This document shows, in pieces, positions 22,828-31,135 of a stretch of DNA of 39,593 bases. Source of the DNA: Acidobacteria bacterium Ga0077534 (GTDB lineage Bacteria > Acidobacteriota > Blastocatellia > Pyrinomonadales > Pyrinomonadaceae); assembly GCA_001464455.1 (NCBI GenBank), contig LNEI01000031.1, positions 1 to 39,593 on the forward strand. The letters are read 5' to 3'. Position 1 is the first letter of the stretch; each line of letters begins with the position of its first letter. The position numbers were made by a program, and so were the translations under genes. The notes beneath the pieces were generated by a model. That model was not told the origin of the DNA. It did no database searches and saw only the letters and a program-made list of their open reading frames with translations.

Positions 22828-22885
22828 CAAACCTACTTCCCTTATATTTATAGAACCCCAAATTTTATCATATCTAACGCTGAAA

Positions 22886-23061
22886 CTCCCCTCCTGGACA
22901 GGAGGGGTGGCCCGGCTTTGCGGGTCGGGGTGGTCGAGGAGGTGGGGGATCGCGGTGTTTGAATTAGTGTTACTTTTTGCCATTTTATCTTCCTCACTCC
23001 GCGAGCCCTCAACCACCCCGTCAGCCGAAGCGGCTGCCACCCCTCCTGTCCAGGAGGGGAG
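22886..23061. repeat. Family B element, copy B1
   Basis: Ends are CCCCTCCTGGACAGGAGGGG hairpins. Inward of the left hairpin are a GGCCCGGC/GGGTCGGGG stem and TGGTCGAGG; inward of the right one are CCTCAACCACCCCGTCAGCC and GAAGCGGCTGCC. The core (ATCGCGGTGTTTGAATTAGT onward) is like those of B4, B5 and B6. Confidence 0.85.
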
Positions 23062-23073
23062 TGTTTCTTGATT

Positions 23074-23256
23074 CCCCTCCTGGACAGGAGGGGTGGCCCG
23101 GCTTTGCGGGCCGGGGTGGTTGAGGCGCTGGGGCTTCGATAATGAAACGCGGGCGATGGCAGCGAGCATAACATTGCTTTGCATTGCATACTCCGCGAGG
23201 CCTCAACCACCCCGTCAGCCGAAGCGGCTGCCACCCCCTCCTGTCCAGTAGGGGAG
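23074..23256. repeat. Family B element, copy B2
   Basis: Same ends as B1, with one T in the right hairpin (CCAGTAGGGG). The core is of a second type, containing CGATAATGAAACGCGGGCGA and TGGCAGCGAGCATAACATT. Confidence 0.85.
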
Positions 23257-23268
23257 CTTTTCCTGATT

Positions 23269-23451
23269 CCCCTCCTGGACAGGAGGGGTGGCTCGGCTTT
23301 GCGAGCCGGGGTGGTTGAGGCGTTGGGGATTCGATAATGCAACGCGGGCGATGGCAGCGAGCATGATATACCTTTGGGTTGTATACTCCGCATCAACATC
23401 AACCACCCCGTCAGCCGAAGCGGCTGCCACCCCTCCTGTCCAGGAGGGGAG
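23269..23451. repeat. Family B element, copy B3
   Basis: Same ends. The core closely matches B2 (CGATAATGCAACGCGGGCGA). The left inner stem has changed to GGCTCGGC/GCGAGCCG, a compensated pair that keeps the hairpin. Confidence 0.85.
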
Positions 23452-23463
23452 CTTTTCTTGATT

Positions 23464-23636
23464 CCCCTCCTGGACAGGAGGGGTGGCCCGGCTTTGCGGG
23501 CCGGGGTGGTTGAGGCGTTGGGGGATCGCGGTGTTTGAATTCGTGTTACTTTTTGCCATTTTATCTTTCTCACTCCGCGATCTCTCAACCACCCCGTCAG
23601 CCGAAGCGGCGGCCACCCCTCCTGTCCAGGAGGGGA
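23464..23636. repeat. Family B element, copy B4
   Basis: Same ends, with a core like B1 (ATCGCGGTGTTTGAATTCGT). It is followed by a partial end-hairpin about 40 bp before the dacB start. Confidence 0.85.
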
Positions 23637-23706
23637 GTGTTTCTTGAGTCCCCTCCTGTGGAGGGGTGCTTTTCGTCGCAAACCAACTTTGCTGTAAAAT
23701 CCTTCC

Positions 23707-25550: not shown

Positions 25551-25982
25551 TTACCATCGTCCGCCGCCGCCGTAGCCGCGGTCGTCGCCGTAGTTTCCGC
25601 GGTCGCGATCTCCTCTATCCCGGCCGCCGCCTCCGCCGCCGTAACCGCCGCCTCCGCCATAGCCGCCACCACCGCCGCCGCGTCCGCCGCCGCCGCCGCG
25701 ATAGCCGCCGCCTCCGCCGCCGCTGCGATTGTCTTCACGTGGGCGAGCCTCGTTTACGACGAGATTTCGGCCGTCGTATTCCGAGCCGTTGAACTGTGCG
25801 ATAGCCGCCGTCGCATCGTCGTCCGAAGCCATTTCAACAAATCCAAATCCTCGCGAACGCCCCGTTTCGCGGTCCATCACAACATTGGCCGAATCAACGG
25901 CCCCAGCCGTAGCAAAATGCTCTTGCAGATCTTCGCTCGTCACGCGAAAAGATAGATTACCGACGTAAAGTTTAGTTCCCAT
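25551..25982 (-). CDS. RRM-type RNA-binding protein with Gly-rich tail
   Basis: 143 residues from the ATG of MGTKLYVGNL, with AGGAG 3-7 nt upstream. The single RRM shows RNP2 (LYVGNL, 4-9) and RNP1 (RGFGFVEM, about 44-51), with a normal spacing. From about residue 86 the tail is almost only Gly, Arg, Tyr and Asp (GGGGGGYRGG units), the type found in cyanobacterial and other bacterial RNA-binding proteins. It likely binds single-stranded RNA, perhaps in cold or stress response. A much longer frame upstream in the same reading frame is antisense to the Calx-beta gene and is not used. The Gly-rich tail is itself a triplet-type repeat. Confidence 0.92.
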   Translation of the reverse strand: MGTKLYVGNLSFRVTSEDLQEHFATAGAVDSANVVMDRETGRSRGFGFVEMASDDDATAAIAQFNGSEYDGRNLVVNEARPREDNRSGGGGGGYRGGGGGRGGGGGGYGGGGGYGGGGGGRDRGDRDRGNYGDDRGYGGGGRW

Positions 25983-26381
25983 TTCTCCTGTAATGAAGTC
26001 GATAGAAGAAGCGTAAGGGTAGGTATTGACGGCGGATCTCGATGATCTGACCGTTACTGCAGCGGCGCGTCCCACACAAAAAAATCTACTGCTTCCAAAC
26101 CAATAAAACCTACTCTCAGGACCGAACCGAAAAGCGCCGCATCTAGCAACCGGACGGGGAATATCACGAGATATCAGCGAGAGCCTATAAATACATAGCG
26201 GAATTATGCCCGTATTCACATCATTTACGCAAGGAAATTTTTGCCCTTGCATCGTCGGCGGTGCCTTTTTTTCCTTTAGCGTCAGTTTCTTGACCGCCGA
26301 GCCGATATCGCATAGACTTTCTGCGATCGGCCCCTGCTTCATCTTGTCCGCAGATCTTTCAGACCGGAGGTTGCCTTTCGT
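25983..26381. promoter_or_regulatory. Divergent intergenic region with two hairpins
   Basis: No gene is seen. GCAAGG/CCTTGC (26229-26250) and GCCGAT-CGCA/TGCG-ATCGGC (26301-26331, one 2-nt bulge) can fold. They lie in the leader of the plus-strand Calx-beta gene. GGAGG stands 12 nt before that gene's ATG. The side next to the RRM gene has a leader of unusual length for such genes. Confidence 0.35.
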
Positions 26382-27449
26382 ATGAAGAGCAGATCGACAA
26401 TAGGCGTTTTTTCCCTTCTCTCGCTCGTCCTTGTTGCGGCGTTCTTTCTTGTCGGGCCGGTTCAGCATGCCCAAACTGGGACGCCCAACGTAAATATCGT
26501 TATGATCGCCGGAGCCTTTGAAACCGAGGGCGATTCGGGTGCGATCCAACGCAATTTTTATCTTCGGCGTAGCGACACGTCGAATACATGCACCATCATC
26601 TATCGCTCCGTCGATGGAACGGCCCAGGCCCCTTCGGATTATTCGCCTCTCTCCGGCGTTCTGACATTTCTTCCGGGCGAGCTTGATAAATTCGTACAGG
26701 TGCAGATCGTCGGCGATACGGTGTTCGAGCTGGACGAGCGTTTTCGTTTTGAGATAACCAGTGCGACCGGATGTCAGGCCAATCCGAACTTCCTCGAGGT
26801 AACGATCTATGACAACGACGCTCCCGGTCCGGGCGTTTCTGCGGTATCGCTGTTCTCGCCCGGTCCTGCCGGAGCTGAGGGCAATTTTGGTGTCACCCAG
26901 TACAACTTCTGGATAGACCGCGTGGGCGACCTGACTATGCCTTGTACCGTAAACTATATAACCCGCGACGGGACAGCGTTCGCCCCTGAGGATTACACCG
27001 CTCGCTCCGGAACCTACTCGTTCACCGCCGGCCAAGTCCGGGGCACAATCACGGTGAATGTCATTGCGGATCTTTTCACTGAGATGGACGAGACGTTCTT
27101 TTTCGACATAACCGGTACGACGGGCTGCATTCTTCGAAATCACCGTTCGGTAATGGCCGAGATAATCGATGGCGACATGCCGGGGCCATCGTGCTCCGGT
27201 GGTATCGAAGGCGATGCGAACCTTGATGCCGCGATTCGGGTGAACGACCTGGTGATCATGCGCCGTGCGATCCTCGGGCTTGAACCTGCGGCGCTGCTCG
27301 GCTGCTCGCTTCAGAAGCTCGATATCACGCCCGACTGCGGCGACGGCAGCGTCAACTCCGGCGATGTTACGATACTGCGCCAATGGATCCTGCAAGGCAG
27401 CGTCCAACGCCCCAACTGCGGCCCCATCGGCCCACCGCCACTGTTCTAA
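26382..27449 (+). CDS. Exported Calx-beta protein with C-terminal dockerin-like repeats
   Basis: 355 residues. Signal peptide (SLVLVAAFFLVGPVQHAQ). Two Calx-beta modules follow, at about 38-145 and 155-265, each with the DGTAxAPxDYxxxSGxxxFxxG and ExDExFxFxIT motifs. The last 80 residues have two EF-hand-like dockerin repeats (GDANLDAAIRVNDLVIMRRA and DCGDGSVNSGDVTILRQWIL) with calcium-binding Asp/Asn positions. Calx-beta and dockerin modules both bind calcium. The protein is probably secreted or cell-surface, possibly docking to a partner. Its stop lies 2 nt before a family A palindromic element. Confidence 0.88.
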   Translation: MKSRSTIGVFSLLSLVLVAAFFLVGPVQHAQTGTPNVNIVMIAGAFETEGDSGAIQRNFYLRRSDTSNTCTIIYRSVDGTAQAPSDYSPLSGVLTFLPGELDKFVQVQIVGDTVFELDERFRFEITSATGCQANPNFLEVTIYDNDAPGPGVSAVSLFSPGPAGAEGNFGVTQYNFWIDRVGDLTMPCTVNYITRDGTAFAPEDYTARSGTYSFTAGQVRGTITVNVIADLFTEMDETFFFDITGTTGCILRNHRSVMAEIIDGDMPGPSCSGGIEGDANLDAAIRVNDLVIMRRAILGLEPAALLGCSLQKLDITPDCGDGSVNSGDVTILRQWILQGSVQRPNCGPIGPPPLF

Positions 27450-27450
27450 G

Positions 27451-27589
27451 CCGGGAACGACGGCGCCCTCGCCTGCAAGCGTTCCGCTTCGGGACGCTGA
27501 CGTACTTAGTGATTCGTCAGCTTGGAAAATAACGATCTCTGTCACGCCGGAGGAACCGGCGTTGCAGGCGAGGGCGCCTGCGTTCCCGG
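27451..27589. repeat. Family A palindromic element, copy A1
   Basis: Left end is CGGGAACGACGGCGCCCTCG (one change against the consensus GGAACGCAGGCGCCCTCGCC). Right end is its complement GGCGAGGGCGCCTGCGTTCC. Inside are the hairpins GCGTTCCGCTTCGGGACGC and CGCCGGAGGAACCGGCG. It lies between the convergent Calx-beta and terminase genes. Confidence 0.85.
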
Positions 27590-27618
27590 CTTCAGAGCCC
27601 GCGTTCCTGGCGATCGTC

Positions 27619-30600
27619 TTAAAATACATACAGCCTCCTGTCTTCTCCGCTGCCCATCATTGCCACGGCGACTGAGACGGCGTCGACCTGGTCGTCGTGT
27701 TGGCCGACGGGAAAGCGGATGAGTTCCTCGACGAATTCGTCTATCCACGGGCCGCGGACGAGTTTCAGCTTTCCCTCTTCGGCTCGCGGCGACCATGTCA
27801 GGGCGCGTGTCGTTTTGTCGGCGGTGACGGGCACGAGGCGGAACGGCCAACGCATCAATATCTGCTGGCGGCGGAGTTCTGAGACGATCGCTGCCGCATT
27901 TCCGCTGTTCTCGATGCCGTGCTGCGTGTCGCGCTCCTGCATGATCCGCTCGAAAACGTATCGCCGCTGCTCGGGGTACTCGATCCGCTTGCGAAAACCG
28001 TCGGCGATGTACATCACGCCCATTTCATCGATAGCGACGCGGAAACTCGCGGTGTAGTCGGCGGTGGTTTTGGTCGATATCGCGAGGTCGTATCCGCGAA
28101 ACCACTTGAGGCCCGGCGGAGCTTTGTCGACGATATTTTTGAGCCACTCGCGTTTGAATATCGAGCCCTCAGCCGGGTTCGGCCGCTGCTGATAAAGCGC
28201 CGAAAAGGAGTAGGTGCCAAGCTGATCTTTGAGCTCCAAAAGCTTCGGCACGTCATACCGCGGCGGGCAAAGAGCCTCACCTACGACGCGCCAATCTTGG
28301 GGAGTTGCGAGAGTTTCGGAAGTTGCGGAAGTTGCGGAAGTTGCGGGAGTTTCGGAAGTCGTGGAATTTTCGGAGGTTTTGGAAGTTTTGGAAGTTGGAT
28401 TTTCTGGCGTCGCTGAAGGCGACGAGGATAATAGCCTGGGGTGGGGCCGCTTCGGCGGAACCTCGGGAATAATGGCGATGTTTTCGGCTCCCTGAAGGGG
28501 AGCGACATTGTCATTCAGCCTCGAATACAAACGCGGATAGCCGATGACGCGGGGTTTTGCGACTGGAACGCAGGCGCCCTCGCCTGCAGGCGTTCCGTTT
28601 CGGGACGCCGACGTGCGTGGTGATTGTTCAGGTTGGATAATACCCGGCTCCGGCACGCCGGGGGAACCGGCGTTGCAGCCGAGGGCGGCCGCGTTCCCGG
28701 CATCGGACGGCTTTCCAATACCGTCGCTCCAGGACTCCTCCATTCCCCCGCTCCCCAACTCCTCCATTCCCCCGCTCCCCAACTCCTCCATTCCCCCGCT
28801 CCCCAACTCCTTGATCGCGGGCAGGTTTATGATCTCCCACTTCTCGCCGCCTTCGTTCATTTGCTTTATAAGGCGGCCGGCGAGGTCGTCTTCGTGCCAG
28901 CGGGTTTGGATGAGGACGATCGCACCGTTGGGTTCGAGGCGGGTGTAGAGGTCGTCGGTGTACCAGTCCCAGAGGCGGTTGCGAAAGGTTTCGCTCTCTG
29001 CCTGAGCACGGTTTTTCACCGGGTCGTCGACCATGATCAGATCCGCCCCGAAACCCGTCACACCAGCTCCGACGCCAACCGCCTTTAGCCCGCCACCCGC
29101 CGCCGTGCCCCATTCGGAGACGGTATTGATGGGTTTTGATGAGGTGAAGGGGAACATCTTCAACGGTAAACTCCCCTCCTGGACAGGAGGGGTGGCCCGG
29201 CTTTGCGGGCCGGGGTGGTTGAGGAGGTGGAGGATCGCAATGTGTGAATTAATGTTACTCGTTGCGAGGTTGTCTTCCCCAGTCCGCGAGGCCTCAACCA
29301 CCCCGTCAGCCGAAGCGGCTGCCACCCCTCCTGTCCAGGAGGGGAGTGTTTCTTGATTCCCCTCCTGGACAGGAGGGGTGACCCGGCTTTGCGGGTCGGG
29401 GTGGTTGAGGAGGTGGGGGATCGCAATGTTTGAATTAATGTTACTCGTTGCGAGGTTGTCTTCCCCAGTCCGCGAGGCCTCAACCACCCCGTCAGCCGCG
29501 GCTTTAGCACTGGCCGGGCCTTGACGGCCAGAACCGGCTGCCACCCCTCCTGTCCAGGAGGGGAGTTCGGATTCTAACTCGATCCGTTCGCCGCAGCTTG
29601 AGCAGTGGTCGATGTCACCGACCTCCGACGCGGTGCAGCGCGAGCGGTCGTTGTGGTCGAGCCGGACGGAGTCGACCTTCTCTTCCCTCTTAGCAGCGGC
29701 CGCAGCACGGCACGCGGAGCAGCGGAAACGGACTGGCGATCTCGAGCTATCGCCGGTTCCTCGGGCGTGAGCGCCTGGATCCCCCTCCTGGACAGGAGGG
29801 GTGGCCCGGCTTTGCGGGTCGGGGTGGTTGAGGTCCGCAGGGATTGTGCGAGTTTGTTGCAGCCGGCTTTCGTTCATGTGTGAGTTGCGTGGTGCCGCAA
29901 GTTCATCAACCACCCCGTCAGCCGAAGCGGCTGCCACCCCTCCTGTCCAGGAGAGGAGTTCGCTTACTCGTTCCATCGCGACGTGGTCTGAGATCACTTG
30001 CCTTATCTTTCGCGAGAAGCGGTTGGCGAGGCTTTGGCCGTAGCTGGCGAGGATGATGTTTGTTTCGGGCTTTTGGAGCAGACGCCAGGCGAGGTAGCGG
30101 ACGGTGACGAGTTCGCTCTTGCCATGACGCGGCGGGATGTTGATCATCAGTCGTTTGATCTTGCCGCTCGTAATGCGCTCGAGCGCGTCGTAGATGACCT
30201 GCTGAAATTTCCAGTCCCAATTCATGTTTGGCGAGATATCTTTGAGCCAGTTGACGAAGTCGGGAAAGCCGGGCGGCTCTTCACCTGTAGGTCCGCTCTC
30301 TGCGACTGGAACGCAGGCGCCCTCGCCTGCAGGCGTTCCGCTTCGGGACGCCGACGTGCGTGGCGATTGTTCAAGTTGGGCAATACTATGCTCCGTCAGG
30401 CCGGAGGAACCGGCCTTGCAGGCGGGGGCGCCTGCGATCCCGGCTCTTTCCCATCCAAACTCGCGTATCCACCCCTCGCGGGTGCCGCGGCCTTTTGTGC
30501 GGCGGTAGAGGATGCGGCAGGAGAAATCTTCGAAGCCGAACGAACGCATCGCGGCTTCGATCTTTGGGCCGGACATTCCGCTTTCGTACAGCTGGCGGCA

Positions 30601-30732
30601 GATGTTGACCTTGAGGTGTGAAAGATTCTGCTGTTCGTTCTTGACATTCGTTTGTTCGTTGTATATCATGTGATAGTTGAATGACATTTCCGGCTTCGCG
30701 GCTGACCCGCGAGGCGAAATGGATGCGTACAT
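27619..30732 (-). CDS. Phage-type terminase large subunit, expanded by in-frame repeat elements
   Basis: 1037 residues; relatives of this ATPase/nuclease family are usually about 450-550. AGGG lies 4-7 nt before the first ATG. Genuine parts: an N-terminal HTH-like segment (about 38-95); the ATPase with Walker A NIPPRHGKSE (about 198-207), Walker B ADLIMVDDP and coupling IQTRWHEDDLAGRL; and the nuclease with RGYDLAIS, NSGNAAA and QHDDQVDAVS. Inserted parts: family A at about 97-143 and 678-723; family B at about 259-317, 390-458 and 463-521; an 8-residue repeat ELGSGGME x3 at about 641-665; and a T-S-E/T-S-A tract at about 775-811. A C-x2-C pair (FRCSAC, HCSSCGE) sits between two B copies. No other phage gene is nearby. 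It is either an intact but padded protein or a decaying gene still open. Confidence 0.85.
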   Translation of the reverse strand: MYASISPRGSAAKPEMSFNYHMIYNEQTNVKNEQQNLSHLKVNICRQLYESGMSGPKIEAAMRSFGFEDFSCRILYRRTKGRGTREGWIREFGWERAGIAGAPACKAGSSGLTEHSIAQLEQSPRTSASRSGTPAGEGACVPVAESGPTGEEPPGFPDFVNWLKDISPNMNWDWKFQQVIYDALERITSGKIKRLMINIPPRHGKSELVTVRYLAWRLLQKPETNIILASYGQSLANRFSRKIRQVISDHVAMERVSELLSWTGGVAAASADGVVDELAAPRNSHMNESRLQQTRTIPADLNHPDPQSRATPPVQEGDPGAHARGTGDSSRSPVRFRCSACRAAAAAKREEKVDSVRLDHNDRSRCTASEVGDIDHCSSCGERIELESELPSWTGGVAAGSGRQGPASAKAAADGVVEASRTGEDNLATSNINSNIAIPHLLNHPDPQSRVTPPVQEGNQETLPSWTGGVAAASADGVVEASRTGEDNLATSNINSHIAILHLLNHPGPQSRATPPVQEGSLPLKMFPFTSSKPINTVSEWGTAAGGGLKAVGVGAGVTGFGADLIMVDDPVKNRAQAESETFRNRLWDWYTDDLYTRLEPNGAIVLIQTRWHEDDLAGRLIKQMNEGGEKWEIINLPAIKELGSGGMEELGSGGMEELGSGGMEESWSDGIGKPSDAGNAAALGCNAGSPGVPEPGIIQPEQSPRTSASRNGTPAGEGACVPVAKPRVIGYPRLYSRLNDNVAPLQGAENIAIIPEVPPKRPHPRLLSSSPSATPENPTSKTSKTSENSTTSETPATSATSATSETLATPQDWRVVGEALCPPRYDVPKLLELKDQLGTYSFSALYQQRPNPAEGSIFKREWLKNIVDKAPPGLKWFRGYDLAISTKTTADYTASFRVAIDEMGVMYIADGFRKRIEYPEQRRYVFERIMQERDTQHGIENSGNAAAIVSELRRQQILMRWPFRLVPVTADKTTRALTWSPRAEEGKLKLVRGPWIDEFVEELIRFPVGQHDDQVDAVSVAVAMMGSGEDRRLYVF
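28295..28412. repeat. In-frame 9-bp minisatellite in the terminase gene
   Basis: Plus strand reads GGAAGTTGC repeated with drift (AGTTTCGGA, AGTTTTGGA). On the coding strand it gives Thr/Ser-rich triplets (SATSATSET). The same AGTTGCGG core occurs with period 8 in the non-coding array after dacB. Confidence 0.7.
28564..28699. repeat. Family A palindromic element, copy A2 (inside terminase gene)
   Basis: Ends are GGAACGCAGGCGCCCTCGCC and a slightly diverged complement (GAGGGCGGCCGCGTTCC). Read in the terminase frame it gives CNAGSPGVPE and SPRTSASRNGTPAGEGACVP. Confidence 0.85.
28738..28812. repeat. 24-bp tandem repeat, three units, inside terminase gene
   Basis: Each unit is CTCCATTCCCCCGCTCCCC plus AACTC on the plus strand, encoding ELGSGGME on the minus strand. 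It falls between LPAIKE and the second family A copy, in a loop before the nuclease domain. Confidence 0.85.
29171..29346. repeat. Family B element, copy B5 (inside terminase gene)
   Basis: Standard B ends. The core (ATCGCAATGTGTGAATTAAT) is homologous to B1 and B4. In frame it reads LPSWTGGVAAASADGVVE to NHPGPQSRATPPVQEG. Confidence 0.85.
29359..29565. repeat. Family B element, copy B6 (inside terminase gene)
   Basis: Start 186 bp after B5, joined by the same TGTTTCTTGATT linker as in the dacB array. The right inner hairpin is enlarged by about 33 bp (GGCTTTAGCACTGGCCGG region), a multiple of three, so the frame is kept. Confidence 0.85.
29782..29957. repeat. Family B element, copy B7 (inside terminase gene)
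   Basis: Standard ends with a single change in the right hairpin (CCAGGAGAGG). The core is of another type (TCCGCAGGGATTGTGCGAGT). It begins just after the ATPase segment SDHVAMERVSEL. Confidence 0.85.
30306..30443. repeat. Family A palindromic element, copy A3 (inside terminase gene)
   Basis: Ends GGAACGCAGGCGCCCTCGCC and GGCGGGGGCGCCTGCGATCC. Same orientation and reading frame as A2. It separates the N-terminal HTH-like part from the ATPase domain. Confidence 0.85.
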
Positions 30733-30895: not shown

Positions 30896-31135
30896 ATGAA
30901 TACCACGCAACGAACATTGGATTTGATCACGCGGCCAAAGCTCCGCCTCTCTGAGGTCGAACGCCTCATCCGCATTAACCGCATCATCGTTCCCCCGCTC
31001 TCACGCCGACGCCTTATCGAAATGTGTGAGGACGGAACCCTCAAGATCGCCCCGAGAAAAGACCCGCGCTCCAGATATCTGGTCTACGAAGACTCATTCC
31101 TGAACTGGGTCCGCTCGCTGGACGAGCCGGCGTAA
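30896..31135 (+). CDS. Small basic protein, possible excisionase/MerR-like DNA-binding domain
   Basis: 79 residues, predicted mostly helical and basic. The stretch SRRRLIEMCEDGTLKIAPRK followed by SRYLVYEDSFLNWVRSL has the layout of helix-turn-helix domains of the excisionase type: a helix, a wing with G-T/L-K, then R-x-Y-L-V and a final helix. It diverges from the terminase gene across a region with short direct repeats. A role in control of that gene is a guess. The ribosome site is weak (CAAGAC). No integrase or other phage genes lie around it. Confidence 0.6.
   Translation: MNTTQRTLDLITRPKLRLSEVERLIRINRIIVPPLSRRRLIEMCEDGTLKIAPRKDPRSRYLVYEDSFLNWVRSLDEPA

Follow-up and report, generated by a model that had tools for sequence, protein, structure and literature searches.

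In-frame palindromic repeats in the linkers of a large terminase gene from the acidobacterial genus OLB17

The window considered here is a stretch of 39,593 nucleotides from Acidobacteria bacterium Ga0077534, a member of the genus OLB17 (Pyrinomonadaceae, Acidobacteriota). On its reverse strand, positions 27619-30732 form a single open frame of 1037 aa that encodes a large terminase (TerL). The gene holds at least eight pieces of repeated DNA and keeps its frame through all of them: two copies of a family termed A here, three doublets of a family B, one copy of a family C, and two tandem arrays. Together these repeats account for 1135 of its 3111 bases (about 36%). An earlier note on this DNA, made from the letters alone, had described a terminase open over 3.1 kb and swollen by at least seven in-frame insertions (two A, three B, a 24-bp array and a 9-bp minisatellite). 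Both parts of that description hold, and the dispersed family C can be added to it.

The terminase gene and its insertions

Several lines of evidence identify the gene. The open frame matches Terminase_6N (8.5e-11) and Terminase_6C (5.3e-11) in Pfam and the terminase family phrog_38 in PHROG (2.1e-96), and a check of this copy for stops found none. It carries the Walker A and B motifs of the ATPase and the acidic residues of an RNase H-like nuclease: in an alignment of 52 rows, seven of the eight residues of the Walker A motif PPRHGKSE (residues 200-207) are invariant, as are the acidic residues D569 and D570 of Walker B and D882, D1014 and D1017 of the nuclease, and P571 of Walker B is present. 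When an AlphaFold model of the protein was compared with known structures by Foldseek, the top matches were solved terminases (best 8dgc_E, 2.6e-11).

The domains and repeats can be followed along the reverse strand from the N-terminus. A helical domain (about residues 30-95, 30448..30645), confident in the AlphaFold model and without a Pfam match, is followed by a first linker that contains family A copy 1 (residues 97-144, 30301..30444). The ATPase domain comes next in two halves, the first with Walker A (residues 155-257, 29962..30270; alignment and model) and the second with Walker B (residues 533-645, 28798..29136; Pfam, alignment and model). Between them lies the largest insertion (about residues 258-531), a loop with three family B doublets at residues 258-317 (29782..29960), 389-459 (29358..29567) and 462-521 (29170..29348). 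This loop also includes a non-repeat segment with two CxxC pairs (residues 320-381, 29590..29775), and the CSAC motif found there is kept in the orthologue L222. Beyond Walker B come a 24-bp tandem array (residues 641-667, 28734..28811; 3.2 copies, 100% matches), family A copy 2 in the linker between ATPase and nuclease (residues 678-725, 28558..28701), the family C copy (residues 741-776, 28407..28512) and a 9/18-bp minisatellite (residues 779-810, 28303..28397). The nuclease domain (residues 812-1032, 27637..28299; Pfam, alignment and model) ends the series. Both family A copies and all three family B doublets are absent in L222. The earlier note held that the insertions avoid the catalytic motifs and fall between domains: the catalytic residues are indeed kept, but the largest insertion lies inside the ATPase domain.

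The repeat segments are predicted to be disordered around a confidently modelled core. AlphaFold assigned a confidence (pLDDT) of at least 90 to 375 residues and below 50 to 488, with the low stretches mainly at residues 1-29, 100-148, 267-531 and 650-806. Compared with the repeat map, these stretches match the inserts, the N-terminal tail excepted. Residues below 50 number 45 of 48 and 39 of 48 in the two family A copies, 56 of 60, 71 of 71 and 49 of 60 in the three family B doublets, and 34 of 36 in the family C copy.

Repeat families in the genome and in other genes

Families A and B are palindromic repeats dispersed through the 4.2-Mb genome in copy numbers far beyond chance. Family A (132-142 bp, with inverted ends of about 24 bp) has 22 near-full-length copies by alignment. 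Family B is made of units of about 54 bp that form inverted doublets and arrays, and a family B query returned 127 BLAST pieces, both strands and overlapping pieces counted. Family C is dispersed as well (20 BLAST pieces, including the window copy). The earlier note's view that A and B are unrelated is unsafe, as CGTC next to a stem-loop was found in both. CGTC adjoins an exact stem of at least 5 in 14 of the 22 family A copies vs 21 of 1100 mononucleotide shuffles; with a stem of at least 4 it occurs in 10 of the 11 family B stretches examined, a figure that stands without shuffle control.

Two family A copies (C27:250701-250836 and 251471-251607) flank a gene (250937-251218; locus L086) that matches Y1_Tnp, of the type of the REP-associated tyrosine transposases (RAYT; REP, repetitive extragenic palindrome). 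This arrangement, that of a REPtron, was seen at the one locus examined among ten Y1_Tnp matches, and the pair, apparently CGTC-tagged, with its gene is possibly a mobile unit. A DUF559 gene that looks intact (C25:194177-194482, within L076, C25:193277-195148) has family B arrays to either side. That gene might be linked to the spread of family B; a literature search on DUF559 with palindromic repeats found nothing related. The window itself contains repeats outside TerL. Directly downstream of the gene is another family A copy (27454..27591, strand not assigned), and a 692-aa open reading frame (ORF; 25551-27629) with an RRM domain only at residues 554-623 runs into it; the true gene there is probably much shorter. 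A family B tandem array at 22883-23658 lies at the start of the ORF for a di-haem peroxidase, where the corresponding stretch of a related genome, G052, has much less room, and a 66-bp tandem repeat (275-429, 2.3 copies) lies within an ORF at 37-585.

The genome has a second TerL gene, on contig C4, which also carries family A and B copies. The two TerLs hold 4 of the 22 family A copies, in line with the earlier note's suggestion of a sink for repeats; these four satisfy a coding rule (one open frame, with at least 40 positively scored codons on both sides) that was set after seeing the data, and the other 18 fail it. A stricter coding-score threshold of 0.25 on both sides flagged two places and missed the TerL copies, so the looser rule was used. 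Both genes together account for 0.14% of the genome, and uniform chance would put 4 of 22 copies in them with a probability of about 3e-8 (9e-5 for the C4 gene alone), although this null is crude and the window was chosen for its repeats.

Family B also occurs inside unrelated conserved genes. Units in open frames were found in the genes for RluD, an Eco57I-type methylase, an XdhA-like protein, HsdM, NagA, AtuA, an AMP-binding multidomain enzyme, an M1 peptidase, an AAA_25 protein, Nnr (YjeF) and CoaBC. These are 11 of the 12 other genes judged (eight by codon score, AAA_25 and CoaBC by open frame and Pfam, and Nnr), and the twelfth is frame-broken. In this gene, for an AMP-binding enzyme (C18:312790), a family B doublet separates two frames: the domain breaks off where the element lies (profile position 276 of 384), and the remainder and AMP-binding_C lie in another ORF. 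Four further places (C8:12712, C4:38666, C18:656433 and C4:47423) show stops or a change of frame on the codon score, taken on one strand; they lie between separate ORFs and so were left uncounted. Against an expectation of one third, the binomial probability is 5e-5 for 11 of 12, 0.004 for 11 of 16 with those four taken as failures, and 0.03 for 8 of 13 on the codon score only; all three figures are indicative only, because broken genes are harder to recognise. The RluD loop has 30 residues vs 6 in E. coli RluD, a solved homologue, and NagA and Nnr each have 57 residues where solved structures have 18 and none, respectively. Across the genus (30 loci, L281-L310, out of those from a search of 41 genomes), the RluD loop is hypervariable in length and content and holds various repeat-like peptides, which by eye resemble family B in L297 and L289. 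For both the TerL and the RluD rows, absence of the element from orthologues was found.

Lone and cluster-borne terminases in the genus

A phage head cluster recurs among the 41 OLB17 genomes compared, with local rearrangements: a helix-turn-helix (HTH) gene, GH46, g2, g4, TerL, an SPP1-type portal, g6, capsid and g8. Capsid, portal and TerL were each found in 37 of the 41. TerL lies only in the cluster in 17 genomes, only elsewhere ("lone") in 17 and in both places in 3, and the search did not find it in G005, G012, G040 or G050; in 14 genomes the head-cluster stretch was examined and gave no TerL match. Lone here means that the stretch examined has no portal, capsid or GH46 match, a call that is weak for the 9 of 36 on contigs of at most about 5.3 kb. 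The earlier note called the present gene a lone terminase, which is true of the window; portal and capsid are found on contig C29 of the same genome, in a head cluster that, over the stretch examined, has neither TerL nor the HTH gene. An HTH gene instead adjoins TerL in the window, as a divergent HTH-like ORF (30896..31135, forward strand) that is kin to the HTH of the genus head cluster; it has no Pfam match, and its relative in L067 matches HTH_17 weakly. G052 shows the same split, with TerL and HTH away from the head cluster.

The head genes are conserved and vertically kept, as in gene transfer agents. Capsid ORFs have 285-340 codons and portal ORFs 387-514, with a further portal match in G045 in a scrap of 24 codons. 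Where checked, the cluster is flanked by host genes (GGDEF, MnmG/GidA, DPP IV), and no tail genes were seen in these flanks. The closest capsid among named phages is that of Aeribacillus phage AP45 (55.6% identical). An ordinary HK97-type prophage was considered and rejected: the PF04860 portal is absent from this genome in a search of 25 genomes, and the head genes on C29 have another portal type. Head clusters with GH46, portal, capsid and small genes lie at L067:6799-14230 and at L130:5583-11511 (the C29 cluster). Among the best 80 of 444 matches in IMG/VR, contigs L311-L314 and L348 hold capsids that are 70-72% identical; these contigs are host DNA filed in error or else proviruses of a related kind.

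Taken as a group, lone TerLs exceed the compact cluster-borne TerLs in linker length. The ATPase loop has a median of 175 nt in 31 lone vs 48 nt in 18 cluster-borne copies, and the linker between ATPase and nuclease 138 vs 6 nt; at the first linker most cluster-borne copies have no match. Intact complete proteins span 519-1037 aa when lone and 444-524 aa when cluster-borne. The linker and cluster comparisons exclude L074, a distinct prophage TerL of G001, and TerL scraps such as G000:C17:119547, G011:C12:91053 and G023:C121 were also set aside. The tree of TerL cores has weak support at its deep nodes and is therefore not read for whether TerL entered the cluster or left it. Family C has relatives in other lone TerLs, and other long linkers contain other repeat-like peptides.

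The insertions in the present gene can be compared with empty sites. The window is syntenic with contig C18 of G052, from ribonucleotide reductase through the genes for the di-haem peroxidase, peptidase S13 and RRM protein to TerL, and the TerL on C4 is syntenic with G052:C34. Both G052 TerLs are without the family A and B copies; the segments are thus absent from orthologues rather than conserved there as domains, and it was their conservation that the earlier note had named as refuting its reading. The ratio of nonsynonymous to synonymous substitution (dN/dS) that it had also proposed was computed for the core domains by NG86. The five lone pairs gave ratios of 0.24 for the window and L222 (0.285/1.19), 0.16 for L041/L221 (0.211/1.33), 0.15 for L046/L047 (0.21/1.38), 0.11 for L059/L231 (0.077/0.73) and 0.04 for L229/L230 (0.012/0.27); three cluster-borne pairs gave 0.12, 0.10 and 0.07.

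Origin of the insertions and comparison with known systems

The open frame with its invariant catalytic residues, the low dN/dS and the absence of the repeats from orthologues are best explained by a process that we consider probable: palindromic elements like those known as REPs or as Rickettsia palindromic elements (RPEs) keep inserting, and selection keeps the copies that fall in frame in the tolerant linkers of TerL. The gene would derive from the phage head module kept by most OLB17 genomes; in this lineage it stands away from the portal/capsid cluster. Elements would insert at many places in the genome; in genes under selection, a copy would be lost if it shifted the frame or landed in a folded segment, and kept if it left an open frame in a tolerant linker (before the ATPase, in the ATPase loop, or between ATPase and nuclease), such that TerL swells while its domains stay conserved. 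The TerL linkers would then be the most tolerant sites seen. We infer that the pattern arises because copies that break the frame are lost, and not through targeting. On this account the protein would be made and would work, and it may serve the distant head cluster.

Several observations weigh against this process. First, the C4 copy and its orthologue differ little in the length of their first linkers, and replacement is therefore possible instead of simple insertion. Second, none of the other seven pairs has a ratio as high as the 0.24 of the window and L222, three pairs (this one included) have a dS above 1, and YN00 gave no result for four of the eight; recent relaxation in the window copy would be compatible with such pairwise values. 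Third, the copies within the lone and cluster-borne groups are related, so rank tests on their linkers overstate significance. Three lone copies (L215, L217 and L223) are not swollen and near compact, although a quirk of this one TerL was rejected as an explanation on the strength of the group's longer linkers. Finally, only 16 of 78 linkers longer than 60 nt match A, B or C (L218 and L230 weakly, over 26-44 nt), and the idea that all linker sequence belongs to these families was rejected on that count.

A more ambitious account appears doubtful: a domesticated and perhaps tail-less head module, resembling a gene transfer agent or another particle that packages host DNA, in which the motor gene has left the operon, been duplicated and become hypervariable, its linkers rebuilt time and again from CGTC-tagged palindromic elements moved by a resident RAYT-type transposase, with linkers that affect motor function or immune recognition. 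It is unlikely that the gene is instead a pseudogene, a decaying prophage remnant whose frame was left open by luck because the inserts are GC-rich and poor in stops. Frames are broken in 5 of 31 lone vs 1 of 18 cluster-borne TerLs, and some lone copies are therefore decaying or misassembled; in many family A copies one or two of the six frames contain no stop, and the window pair has the highest dN/dS measured. Yet 26 of the 31 lone TerLs are unbroken despite widely varying linkers, the catalytic residues are kept, the four family A copies in the two TerLs all point the same way relative to their gene, and changes in the core between the window and L222 are dominated by third codon positions (215 vs 119 and 84).

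It is less probable still that the inserts are useful, recruited or targeted to the linkers so as to alter motor function or immune recognition. Insertions recur in the same linkers, lone copies often occur in twos or threes, and the two TerLs of G048 (L229 and L230) share 97% identity in the nuclease domain and have wholly different linkers between ATPase and nuclease; however, the inserted content differs between species and is predicted to be disordered, and the similar units in unrelated housekeeping genes favour general tolerance. An artefact of assembly or binning is very improbable: the named relatives are mostly metagenome bins and the window makes up one entire contig (39.6 kb) out of 32, but the genome is 97.9% complete and 0.02% contaminated, synteny with G052 continues through the locus, and A and B copies occur independently in the C4 gene.

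Palindromic elements inserted in frame are known already, from Rickettsia and from free-living bacteria, and the earlier note's comparison with RPEs is borne out by copies of A and B that are palindromic, dispersed, in frame and absent from syntenic orthologues, and by family B in unrelated conserved genes. In-frame RPEs in Rickettsia have been reviewed (PMC10969869, PMC2229807), and they too are short palindromic repeats of several families in unrelated conserved genes. A 2013 survey reports that in several free-living bacteria REPs tagged with GTAG or CGTC lie inside genes, pseudouridine synthases included, either single or as dimers, with intragenic clusters that encode 43-82 aa; the CGTC-tagged class includes Rickettsia RPE-4 and RPE-6 (PMC3733652). 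CGTC beside a stem is seen in most of the A copies and B stretches examined here. OLB17 belongs to another phylum, three dispersed families and two tandem arrays are found in one gene, and the likeness is one of description. Family A differs from the CGTC-tagged REPs of that survey, where no transposase gene was flanked by CGTC units, in that it flanks a Y1_Tnp gene; by analogy with the acidobacterial tyrosine transposases with long inverted repeats described there, it may be of that type (PMC3733652).

The protein shares its domains, catalytic residues and fold with the large terminases of tailed phages, from which it differs in being twice the usual length and outside its head cluster. With gene transfer agents and other domesticated head modules the OLB17 genes share their presence in most genomes, their conserved sequence and their host-gene flanks where checked; they differ in that about half of the genomes with a TerL have it away from the cluster, that no tail genes were seen beside the cluster and that no particles are known. 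A literature search for Pyrinomonadaceae with gene transfer agents found nothing, and the part of a survey of 24 acidobacterial genomes consulted lists prophages but none in Pyrinomonas methylaliphatogenes (PMC5900883). The literature searched also held no report of stacked families in one gene, of linkers shared across a genus, or of a motor split from its cluster; it is this combination, in which one conserved gene has collected three dispersed families as well as two tandem arrays and the same linkers are reused genus-wide, that is unusual. These observations point to a head module of phage origin that most of a genus has kept, with its motor outside in about half of the genomes having a motor, and to a repeat, apparently CGTC-tagged, next to a gene for a tyrosine transposase, which the 2013 survey reported as not found (PMC3733652). 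Far from Rickettsia, the 41 genomes offer a comparative system for following in-frame palindromic insertion, with syntenic orthologues that show the empty sites, loops that are used again in one copy after another and one extreme recipient gene, and the lineage is well suited to studying how mobile DNA becomes part of proteins.

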